Positions 2,636 to 10,253 of a stretch of 15,040 bases of DNA are shown here, in pieces. Made by a program: the position numbers and the translations under genes. Below the pieces are notes generated by a model, which saw only the letters and a list, made by a program, of their open reading frames with translations, was not told the origin of the DNA and did no database searches. Numbering within the stretch: position 1 is the stretch's first letter; each line of letters starts with the position of its first letter. Origin of the DNA: Thermoplasmatota archaeon (GTDB taxonomy: Archaea > Thermoplasmatota > Thermoplasmata > RBG-16-68-12 > JAJISG01); NCBI GenBank assembly GCA_022848835.1, contig JAJISG010000208.1, positions 1-15,040 of the forward strand, given 5' to 3'.

Positions 2636-3599
2636 GAAGTACGCCTACTGTCCTCTAAACTGGTGGCTCTACAGGGAGGGGATCTCCGCCAGGGGGAGAG
2701 GGCAGGCGGAGGGGACTGAGAAGCATCGGGACCTAGCTGAGGATCTCACTCTAATACTACGCAAGGAGGAGAGGGCCGGACAGTGGGAGACCCTGGTGGT
2801 CTACTTTGCCCTGGCCTCCTCCCTGGTGGCCATCCTTGGTCTCACCCTGCTGCAGCGGTTCGACGCCAGTTTCGCGAGCATCCTATCGGTCGTGGCCCTC
2901 ATATGGCTCCTTGCGGCCACATATCTCATCTATAGGGCGGAGCGGGTGGCACTCCCCGAGGACAAGCTCATCAGTGAGCGTCTTCTGGTGGTCTTCGCCA
3001 TGGTAGCTACGATCATCGCCCTGTTCTCCATATCCCTCTCCTTCCTGGAAGACCGGATAGTGGCCTCTGTCCTGGAGGTGGTAGCCCTGCTGTGGCTTAT
3101 CGGCGCCTCCTTTTTCCTCTACAGGTCAATGAGAGACCTGATGGAAGCGAGGGACTTTCGATTCGCGAAGAATATAGGGGAGAACCCGATCGCCTACGTG
3201 GACGACCCGGGGCAGAGCTCCGAGTTACTCGCGTCGAAGGCCCATGGACTCGCTGGCAGGCCAGATTTCATACTCCAGGAGGAGGATGGCTTGATACCGG
3301 TCGAGGTGAAGACAGGTCGGAAGCCGCGTGGTCCGCTCTTCTCTCACATTCTCCAGGTGACCGCCTACTGCTTCCTCATCGAGGAGACCAGTGGGAGGAA
3401 GCCACCCTACGGGCTCCTAAGGTATGGTGATACCGTCCACGAGATCGAGTACACGGACGACCTGAGAAATCTGCTCCTCTCCAAACTGGATGAGATGAGG
3501 GCTGTGGCGAATGGTGGTGAGGCCCACAGGAACCACCACAGACCTGGGAAGTGCGCCAACTGCTCCCGCCGCTACGCCTGCCCTGAGAGGCTTGCCTAG
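2598..3599 (+). CDS. membrane-embedded Cas4/RecB-like PD-(D/E)XK nuclease with inserted four-helix region
   Basis: The 333-residue protein has the signature of the Cas4-like RecB nuclease family. H43, D223 (GRPDF), E236-x-K238 (VEVKTG) and the QxxxY motif Q253/Y257 form the nuclease core. C18 together with C319, C322 and C328 (CxxCx5C) match the four-cysteine iron-sulfur site of Cas4. Unusually, about 120 residues are inserted between the first cysteine/H43 segment and the catalytic core, with four predicted membrane helices at roughly 64-86, 91-112, 128-150 and 153-175. The two hairpins align without gaps at an offset of 63 residues, so the insert arose by duplication. The catalytic part should face the cytoplasm. 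It starts at GTG 2598 inside the preceding gene. No CRISPR array or other cas gene is visible, so a role in adaptation is not supported; DNA processing at the membrane is inferred. Confidence 0.85.
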   Translation: MKPGLQISAGEIEKYAYCPLNWWLYREGISARGRGQAEGTEKHRDLAEDLTLILRKEERAGQWETLVVYFALASSLVAILGLTLLQRFDASFASILSVVALIWLLAATYLIYRAERVALPEDKLISERLLVVFAMVATIIALFSISLSFLEDRIVASVLEVVALLWLIGASFFLYRSMRDLMEARDFRFAKNIGENPIAYVDDPGQSSELLASKAHGLAGRPDFILQEEDGLIPVEVKTGRKPRGPLFSHILQVTAYCFLIEETSGRKPPYGLLRYGDTVHEIEYTDDLRNLLLSKLDEMRAVANGGEAHRNHHRPGKCANCSRRYACPERLA

Positions 3600-7808: not shown

Positions 7809-7993
7809 CCTCCCGTGACTCCAGTCGGCATTCAGGGCCACGCAGTCAGATTTGTAAGAAAGGTTCGATGAGAATATCACTCCTGATTACTGGGGCTGGG
7901 AACCTCGACATGAGAGTGGCCATTCAGCCCTCCATCACCGCCCGCTAGCAGGCACTTACCAGGAGGATGGCCGTAACGTCTCCGACGTTGAAG

Positions 7994-8066
7994 TGGGCGC
8001 GGCAGGATTTGAACCTGCGACCTACGCCATGTCAAGGCGTCGTCATAGCCCCTAGACCACGCGCCC
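7994..8066 (-). tRNA. tRNA-Val(GAC)
   Basis: The 73-nt gene folds into a full cloverleaf. The acceptor is GGGCGCG/CGCGCCC with discriminator A. The anticodon arm is ACGCC/GGCGT around the loop TTGACAT, giving anticodon GAC at 8033-8031. The T arm is GCAGG/CCTGC with loop TTCAAAT. CCA is not encoded, and there is no intron. Confidence 0.95.
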
Positions 8067-8105: not shown

Positions 8106-8122
8106 TGAAAACTGCCACAAAT

Positions 8123-9335: not shown

Positions 9336-9435
9336 TGCTCCCGCCGGGATTTTCAAGGATCTAGGGTGAACCTGTTTGAACCCGGGACCCGGGCTCGAAA
9401 GGCCCGAATGATTGACCGAACTACACTACGGGAGC
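9336..9435 (-). tRNA. tRNA-Glu(UUC) interrupted by a 25-nt intron in the T-loop
   Basis: After removing 9350-9374 the sequence is a standard 75-nt tRNA-Glu. The acceptor is GCTCCCG/CGGGAGC with discriminator A. The anticodon stem is CGGGC/GCCCG around CTTTCGA (anticodon TTC at 9399-9397). The T stem is CCGGG/CCCGG with loop TTCAAAT. In the genome the loop is split after TTCAAA, between positions 59 and 60. CCA is not encoded. A TATA-like element lies 31-38 bases upstream. Without the intron the T arm cannot be recognised, so a standard scan may miss or misjudge this gene. Confidence 0.9.
9350..9374 (-). other. tRNA-Glu intron with bulge-helix-bulge motif, position 59/60
   Basis: The precursor forms a textbook hBHBh' structure. 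The outer helix is the T stem CCGGG/CCCGG. A 4-bp central helix pairs exon TTCA with intron TGAA. The 3-nt bulges are AAC and AAT on opposite strands. An inner helix AGG/CCT closes a 12-nt loop. Cutting each bulge after its second base releases exactly 25 nt and restores the loop TTCAAAT. The splice site is therefore defined by structure and by the mature sequence. Confidence 0.88.
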
Positions 9436-9465: not shown

Positions 9466-9473
9466 GTTAAAAT
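9466..9473 (-). promoter_or_regulatory. TATA-like box of tRNA-Glu
   Basis: The minus strand reads attttaac, 31-38 bases before the tRNA 5' end, in the short gap after the PAC2 gene's stop. Position is acceptable for an archaeal tRNA promoter. Confidence 0.4.
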
Positions 9474-9488
9474 CTACGCCCTGAACCG

Positions 9489-10253
9489 TCAACCTATGTA
9501 GCCGAGGTCCTTCCCGCCTGTGGGCTCATCAGGTTTGACCTCCGCTTCCCTCAGGCGTGAGGTGATTACGTCAATCTGTTTCGCCTTGTCCTCCAGTTCC
9601 GAGAAGTCTATCTCAAGGTCCAGGGCCTGGATGAGGACATCCAACACGGCTCTCGCGCTCTTGGGGTCAACGAAGTAACCGGATGTCTCTCCCATGAAGC
9701 AGACCGAGCGCATGTTGTGGAGTGCACCGAGACCCAGTAGTAGCCCACTGGCCCCGACTATACCTGTGCCTGAATCTACGCGAGAGAAGACCACTCCGTA
9801 TCCCTCCATCTCCTTCACCAGATCCTCTTCGGTAGCCGCTCCTAGGACCCTAGGCTTCTCCACAATTTTTCCAACCCCATAGCCACCCAGGGTGAAGATC
9901 TCCTCCACCCCGAACTCCGCCAGGACTCTCAGGATAAAGTCGGTGATCTCATACTGTCCTTCAGGGTTCATGCCCTGATAGTCGCCCACCAGGAAGATTA
10001 TGTCGACGCCCTTTCCCACGTCCTTAGCGTAGTAGAGCTCGTTATTGACGAGCTTAATCAGGCCACCGTCCAGGACCATGACCTGGGGCGGGAAGTACTT
10101 CGAGACGATCTCCGCGAACTTCTTGGCTCCCAGCTGATCTATCAGGTGCTCTGCCGCCAGCTTACCCACGTTTCCGATTCCCGGCAGGCCCTCTATGAAG
10201 ATGGGTTTCTTCAGTTTGGGCCTCTCCAGGTAGTGAATGACGATGTCGTCCAT
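9489..10253 (-). CDS. PAC2-family proteasome assembly chaperone homologue (COG2047)
   Basis: The 254-residue protein matches the archaeal PAC2 family. It starts with the conserved segment IFIEGLPGIGNVGKLAAEHLI (18-38), followed by FPPQVMV, FLVGDYQGM (91-99), FTLGGYGVG (120-128), and the SGTGIVGASGLLLGLG segment (161-176). A helical, charged C-terminus follows. Archaeal homologues (PbaA/PbaB) associate with proteasome alpha subunits or act as chaperone-like complexes. The C-terminus ends G-Y-I-G, so tyrosine is third from last rather than penultimate, and it is not a strict HbYX gate-opening motif. It is the last gene of the L44e-S27e-aIF2alpha-Nop10-PAC2 cluster, 4 bases after the Nop10 stop. 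This neighbourhood recurs in archaea. Confidence 0.88.
   Translation of the reverse strand: MDDIVIHYLERPKLKKPIFIEGLPGIGNVGKLAAEHLIDQLGAKKFAEIVSKYFPPQVMVLDGGLIKLVNNELYYAKDVGKGVDIIFLVGDYQGMNPEGQYEITDFILRVLAEFGVEEIFTLGGYGVGKIVEKPRVLGAATEEDLVKEMEGYGVVFSRVDSGTGIVGASGLLLGLGALHNMRSVCFMGETSGYFVDPKSARAVLDVLIQALDLEIDFSELEDKAKQIDVITSRLREAEVKPDEPTGGKDLGYIG

Follow-up and report, generated by a model that had tools for sequence, protein, structure and literature searches.

A Probable Bulge-Helix-Bulge Intron at Position 59/60 of a tRNA-Glu(UUC) Gene in the Euryarchaeal Class Thermoplasmata, and Similar Introns in Related Genomes

The stretch of DNA analysed here (the window) is 15,040 nucleotides in length. 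A tRNA-Glu(UUC) gene lies on its minus strand at positions 9336..9435 and is 100 nucleotides long before splicing, including the discriminator A73. All parts of the gene given below are on the minus strand. Exon 1 (9375..9435, 61 nucleotides) corresponds to nucleotides 1-59 of the tRNA, and exon 2 (9336..9349) corresponds to nucleotides 60-73. Between them, at position 59/60 in the T-loop, is a 25-nucleotide insert (9350..9374), which is identified as an intron by the bulge-helix-bulge (BHB) geometry at its ends and by the tRNA that is restored when it is removed. The anticodon TTC is read directly from the sequence (9397..9399). After removal of the intron, the acceptor stem has 7 of 7 pairs and the T-stem 5 of 5, with an anticodon loop of CTTTCGA and a T-loop of TTCAAAT.

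A strict BHB is formed at the two joints. The outer helix of 5 base pairs is composed of the two strands of the T-stem, CCGGG (9381..9385) on the 5’ side and CCCGG (9344..9348) on the 3’ side. The 4-base-pair central helix is composed of TTCA (nucleotides 54-57 of the tRNA, 9377..9380) and TGAA (9352..9355), and it includes nucleotide 57, which covaries with its partner in relatives. Inside it is the inner helix of AGG (9371..9373) and CCT (9356..9358). The two bulges are 3 nucleotides each, with AAC (9374..9376) on the 5’ side and AAT (9349..9351) on the 3’ side; the predicted cuts fall between AA and C, and between AA and T, respectively. Two features of archaeal BHB introns are present, namely the motif at the joints and an excision that leaves regular tRNA stems. 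When the 25-nucleotide intron was subjected to 200,000 simple shuffles, the 4-base-pair center together with a 3-base-pair inner helix was obtained in a fraction of 1.85e-4. A preliminary description of this locus had named the same tRNA, intron, strict motif, and restored TTCAAAT; its coordinates and stems are confirmed on the minus strand, and its geometry is exact.

A TTTTAA sequence located 32-37 nucleotides upstream of the gene (9467..9472, minus strand) was identified by eye as a possible box A. The upstream neighbor, taken from the list of open reading frames, is an ORF at 9489..10253 on the minus strand, which is presumably PAC2-like. An intronless tRNA-Val(GAC) at 7993-8066 is the sole tRNA of the window for ARAGORN and for Rfam at its gathering threshold. 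The unspliced tRNA-Glu is not detected by either program at these settings, and the part of it that scores in Rfam reaches 18.9 bits, with a cut-off of 29. The minimum-energy fold of the naked 100-nucleotide precursor (−38.9 kcal/mol) is other than the BHB cloverleaf, which has −32.8 kcal/mol when drawn without the D-stem. This fold says little about the precursor because the spliced tRNA likewise gives no cloverleaf in silico.

On the sequence evidence, the locus very probably encodes a functional tRNA-Glu(UUC) whose transcript contains, at position 59/60, an archaeal BHB intron that is spliced by proteins. The T-stem of this transcript would act as the outer helix, and the invariant TTCR of the T-loop would pair with a YGAA near the 3’ end of the intron, leaving the two 3-nucleotide bulges. 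The splicing endonuclease EndA would cut both bulges and release the intron. A ligase would then join the exons and restore TTCAAAT, and folding and modification of the T-loop would come after splicing.

The source genome is a 1.46-Mb MAG in 286 contigs with a completeness of 94.2%. A second Glu(UUC) gene was not found in these contigs with a pattern allowing 37/38 introns and up to 30 nucleotides in the T-loop, and an intact copy could fall in the missing part of the MAG. The T-loop BHB pattern is present at 15 places in this genome, as against 2 for a backwards control. One match, on contig C216, was judged by eye not to be a tRNA and was rejected. Among the tRNAs of this genome, six are interrupted at 59/60: Glu UUC, Lys CUU, Lys UUU, His GUG, and two with a CAU anticodon, one of which is initiator-like. 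These tRNAs score low or nil in a plain Rfam search, and the Rfam matches of the genome include no other Lys, His, or CAU tRNA (a few anticodons were read by eye). If the six genes were dead, the cell would be without lysine, histidine, and CAU-anticodon tRNAs, or every one of these would need to be encoded in the few per cent that the MAG lacks. The preliminary description had offered an endonuclease that cuts outside the anticodon loop as one explanation; this is most likely, given that 59/60 introns interrupt the sole Glu(UUC) match as well as every Lys, His, and CAU tRNA found.

Some tRNA genes of the source genome have additional sequence elsewhere. Lys(UUU) (contig C125 near position 8114, locus L040) has three introns, located in the D-loop, at 37/38, and at 59/60. 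With all three removed, ARAGORN calls the sequence Lys(ttt); by eye, a strict BHB is not formed by the 37/38 intron. The initiator-like CAU tRNA (contig C207 near position 3215, L044) has extra sequence in the D-arm region besides its 59/60 intron, and tRNA-Trp (contig C203, L003) contains a 92-nucleotide intron.

The preliminary description treated the intron of the window as a lone exception, which does not hold, as introns at this site are widespread, both within the class and outside it. The search pattern required TTC/GAA, a 3-nucleotide spacing, and NNTC, so that the strictness of the motif is partly built in. Within the order, the pattern is present in 36 of 37 genomes, with 92 matches (some of which are not tRNAs) against 4 in the backwards control. 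Within the class, it is present in at least 97 of 121 genomes. The class verification set consists of 80 stretches and the six genes of the source genome, for a total of 86 loci, and 65 of these are verified tRNAs with a 59/60 intron. The other 21 gave no verified tRNA, and some of them look like tRNAs that are too long for the scan. The 59/60 introns of the class were read in the isotypes Lys, His, CAU, Leu, Ala, Arg, Gln, Gly, Asn, and Glu. In 15 control genomes from other euryarchaea, the pattern has 6 matches against 9 backwards, and none of the 6 was verified. In 19 further genomes of the control-group search, there are 57 matches against 14 backwards, and over the 15 and 19 genomes together, 15 of 30 examined loci were verified.

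The insert at 59/60 is 18 to 46 nucleotides long among verified genes, and some of these genes are also interrupted at 37/38 or in the D-loop. Both Methanomassiliicoccus sp. UBA345 and UBA6 have a Lys(UUU) with introns in the D-loop and the T-loop, and an Arg(UCU) with introns at 37/38 and in the T-loop. Genome MXMAG1 also has a Lys(UUU) interrupted in the D-loop and the T-loop; all of these anticodons were read by eye. A search for the D-loop intron of Lys(UUU) gave 41 matches, some of them genes counted twice, all with a CTAG/CTAG center, a word largely demanded by the pattern; three inner pairs are present in 39. From its sequence, this intron looks strict as well. Two or three introns per tRNA, among them introns at 59/60 and in the D-loop, are found in this large euryarchaeal class.

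Two features are left free by the search pattern, the pairing of nucleotide 57 and the inner helix, and only these test the motif independently of it. A total of 125 loci from 69 genome handles (some of which may be one genome) were offered, and 123 were verified. The loci were picked because they were verified or tRNA-like, and the counts describe structure and not frequency. Two loci were dropped: L363, which is a half gene, and L334, a tRNA-His with a T-G wobble in its central helix that evaded the GAA filter. Nucleotide 57 pairs with its unconstrained partner in the intron in all 121 distinct verified genes, with 80 G-C, 38 A-T, and 3 G-T pairs. The inner helix of the same genes is paired at 79% of positions, compared to 42% after permutation and a permutation maximum of 50%. 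Among pattern matches that are not tRNAs, A stands against C in 7 of 42, and the inner helix pairs at 43%. ARAGORN recognizes 82 of 88 sequences with a 59/60 intron when spliced and 6 of 88 when unspliced, although its anticodon calls are unreliable for genes with additional introns.

Genome G155 (the genome of locus L060, matching G036 of the order) is a chromosome record, CP070767.1, in one contig. It appears to be closed, judging from the record title and the single contig. It has 32 Rfam matches, of which 30 were typed by ARAGORN, and none of the 30 is a His or CAU tRNA. The other two matches, both weak, correspond to a CAU tRNA (elongator Met or Ile2) and a tRNA-His, and each of these has a 59/60 intron. 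The tRNA-His was read by eye, and it is the gene with the T-G wobble mentioned above. Lys(UUU) and Gly(UCC) of this chromosome are also interrupted. The recovered set is an incomplete list, as it includes no initiator Met and no Ile or Trp tRNA.

These results bear on whether the gene of the window could be a decayed tRNA-Glu pseudogene with a chance 25-nucleotide insertion, the working copy being in the missing part of the genome. The incompleteness of the MAG (94.2%) leaves room for such a copy. Against it, the acceptor, anticodon, and T stems of the mature tRNA are intact and accompanied by an exact BHB of a kind found in 1.85e-4 of shuffles. The same arrangement is seen at this joint in five other tRNAs of the genome, and pseudogenes would not all share it. 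The covariation extends over 121 genes, and the one-contig chromosome yielded no His or CAU tRNA other than those interrupted in this way. Decay or chance has very little probability and was rejected on the sole copy, the pairing, and the covariation.

A second alternative is that the insert is retained and that the tRNA works with an enlarged T-arm. It draws on the fact that cutting is predicted from sequence. A retained insert would, from general knowledge, break the elbow between the T-loop and D-loop. Insert lengths vary from 18 to 46 nucleotides, yet both joints and the pairing partners are fixed, and some of the genes have further interruptions at 37/38 or in the D-loop. Retention is accordingly regarded as extremely improbable, and removal by splicing is the preferred reading.

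The EndA of the source genome is encoded by one ORF of 351 amino acids with two PF01974 domains and has a fused two-unit form. Unit 2 contains a Tyr, a His, and a Lys, which we take to be the catalytic residues, while unit 1 is without the Tyr and the His. The enzyme would be of the alpha’2 type by sequence, being a single chain of two units, the second of which alone has the catalytic residues. The loop of about 10 residues found in the Aeropyrum subunit is absent from unit 2 in an alignment, and none of the 22 EndAs extracted from this and other genomes (26 were sought) has an insertion at the site of the crenarchaeal loop. The lysine-carrying loop insertion near the active site that marks broad-specificity enzymes, the CSL of (alpha-beta)2 or the ASL of epsilon-2, is lacking. 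Among the best matches of this EndA are PDB entries 5x89 from Methanopyrus kandleri (2.1e-40) and 2gjw, the Archaeoglobus alpha’2 enzyme (2.1e-27). The entry 5x89 is presumably an artificial fusion of two subunits. The EndA of the source genome is one chain of two complete units; the Archaeoglobus chain has 313 residues. In the available part of a review (PMC6379350), both of the matching EndAs are described as without the crenarchaeal loop, and the loop is linked to broad EndA specificity.

The long two-unit EndA is found in most families that have 59/60 introns. Family f18, which has a short EndA, has 9 pattern matches against 10 in the control over 18 genomes. A strict correspondence of 59/60 introns to EndA length was rejected, as genome G163, with an EndA frame of 286 amino acids, has a verified 59/60 intron; the association of long EndA with these introns is a tendency only. 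In the column of the catalytic His, the EndA of genome G071 (L301) has a Gln and three EndAs of f18 (L328-L330) have an Asn. A strict EndA may suffice for splicing at 59/60 because the motif there is itself strict.

The age of the window intron was approached through relatives. The nearest named record is CSMAG_355 (L047), of the same family, with 77% identity in eIF2-alpha; the next nearest are MAGs named Euryarchaeota, Methanomassiliicoccales, or Thermoplasmata archaeon. On these matches, the source genome is assigned to Thermoplasmatota. Synteny is present in 12 relatives, where a tRNA-Glu gene is located approximately 1-2.7 kb downstream of eIF2-alpha. This gene is intronless in 11 of the 12, and in L047 it has a 37/38 intron and another tRNA body. 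A Glu(UUC) pattern gave 54 matches in 51 of 130 class genomes, with a T-loop intron in the window gene alone; the pattern misses introns longer than 30 nucleotides and other acceptor stems, and 79 of the 130 genomes are unmatched. A 55th row in its output is not a tRNA. Because only the window gene has the intron among these 54 matches, the intron was probably gained recently, in the branch of the species or in the stem of its family. Recent gain was also put forward in the preliminary description, and it is supported by these matches and by the 12 syntenic tRNA-Glu genes, none of which has a 59/60 intron.

The Glu(UUC) gene at position 6753 of L047 has a body that by eye resembles the Glu(CUC) of the source genome (L022), as if one Glu gene overwrote the other.

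A different age is compatible with the splicing reading, namely an intron that this gene has kept since the ancestor of the order and that other lineages have lost. Great age is possible for such introns, given that Lys 59/60 introns are present in several families of the order. The history of the gene is also not simple, as the relative of the same family has another Glu(UUC) body and a 37/38 intron, and Glu tRNAs with a 59/60 intron, identified by eye, are present in another class (L352, L359, L360, L368, and L393). The intron is absent from all other Glu(UUC) genes matched in the order, within the limits of a pattern that misses introns over 30 nucleotides and other acceptor stems, and many losses would be needed. 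An old intron is considered unlikely, and recent gain is preferred.

Outside the class, a sample of the phylum identified three families (f27, f37, and f45), belonging to another of its classes, that are rich in the 59/60 pattern. From these families and a few other genomes, 54 stretches were taken, and 46 of them verify, with an acceptor stem of 7 of 7 pairs and a T-stem of 4 or 5 of 5. A search with the EndA of the source genome as query gave no match in 400 kb from four genomes of these families. A tRNA-Trp from outside the class (L397, genome G191) has a verified 59/60 intron, which speaks against a restriction to Thermoplasmata. L397, L398 (G207), and L399 (G198), from other families of the phylum, are all tRNA-Trp-like and have a long intron in the anticodon region in addition to an apparent 59/60 intron; only L397 is fully verified.

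In families f27, f37, and f45, near-identical 59/60 introns recur among different tRNAs of the same genome. Five tRNAs of genome G195 (f37; L351-L354 and L356), read as Leu CAA, Glu CUC, Asp GUC, Ala UGC, and Arg CCU, share such introns. Nine of the ten intron pairs are above the 75% cut, at 79-98% identity; the corresponding exon 1 sequences are 56-69% identical. All five host tRNAs have A57, matching a T in the intron. In genome G215, an identical 45-nucleotide 59/60 intron is present in a Gly and an Arg tRNA (L366 and L367). One milder case was found in the class of the window, where two Lys genes of genome G071 have introns with 80% identity. As judged from their sequences, the near-identical introns point to copying between tRNA genes. 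On contig C4 of genome G184 (L362 and L363), a second Arg(CCU) copy on the same contig keeps the 3’ half and the intron but has no pairing 5’ half.

No such copy was seen for the intron of the window. Its 22-nucleotide core has no second copy within 3 mismatches in the source genome, and a recently transposed copy was rejected, there being no near-identical intron in the other tRNAs of that genome.

A tentative proposal, put forward here as a possibility, is that short introns ending in YGAANN use the T-loop as a universal landing site and are mobile across tRNAs, without a broad-specificity endonuclease, in Thermoplasmata and other classes of the phylum. The T-loop word GTTCRAATC, near-universal in tRNAs, would supply half of a BHB ready-made. 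An intron ending in YGAANN could then settle at 59/60 of almost any tRNA and be removed at once by an ordinary, strict EndA. If true, this would speak against the rule that unusual intron positions follow a relaxation of the endonuclease.

The presence of 59/60 and D-loop introns in Thermoplasmata, alongside a fused EndA without the loop tied to broad specificity, helps to separate an unusual place from an unusual motif. The origin of tRNA introns becomes testable with a near-universal target in the T-loop and near-identical copies in several tRNAs of some genomes. On a practical level, the number of tRNAs in such MAGs may be underestimated, because ARAGORN missed 82 of 88 unspliced sequences and plain Rfam scores were low or nil in the source genome.

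Introns in euryarchaeal tRNAs are described in the accessible portion of one review as single BHB introns at the canonical position of each interrupted gene, with non-canonical and multiple introns tied to the subunit make-up of the endonuclease (PMC4090602). The excerpted text of another source gives few exceptions, listing tRNAs with multiple introns for the euryarchaea Methanopyrus kandleri and Methanothermobacter (PMC4033280). BHB introns in the tRNA-Pyl of another euryarchaeote are mentioned in the part available of PMC9071458, and tRNAscan-SE 2.0 includes a search for non-canonical introns according to the excerpt of PMC8450103. In the portions available of PMC8450103, PMC12397907, PMC4090602, PMC4033280, PMC6379350, PMC4153887, PMC11291895, PMC9071458, and PMC3218864, there is no report of T-loop introns in Thermoplasmata. 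The same applies, at the level of titles and the starts of abstracts, to the matches listed for literature on tRNA introns and endonucleases in Thermoplasmata, Methanomassiliicoccales, Angelarchaeales, and Thermoplasmatales; supplementary tables and GtRNAdb fall outside both statements and could include entries for some of these genes.

Position 59/60 and transposition are already known from Thermoproteota, and what is new here is the lineage, Thermoplasmata, and the type of EndA. Known non-canonical BHB introns likewise have BHB joints and may occur several per gene, but they are reported as abundant in Crenarchaeota and Nanoarchaeota, whereas the present ones are in euryarchaeal Thermoplasmata with a different EndA. 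In Thermoproteales, introns that closely resemble one another across the tRNAs of a genome are attributed to transposition (Fujishima et al. 2010, as cited in the available parts of PMC4090602 and PMC4033280). The comparable cases here come from another class, in families f27, f37, and f45, and concern one site, 59/60; the window intron is not among them. Asgard genomes, in which 92-95% of tRNA genes are interrupted according to the accessible part of PMC11291895, also have many non-canonical and multiple introns but belong to another phylum, and the likeness is one of description alone. The intron of the M. kandleri pre-tRNA-Glu(UUC), as presented in the portion available of PMC6379350, is also in a euryarchaeal Glu(UUC) with an EndA that has neither CSL nor ASL. 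Compared by description, that intron has a relaxed BHB, whereas the BHB of the window gene is strict.
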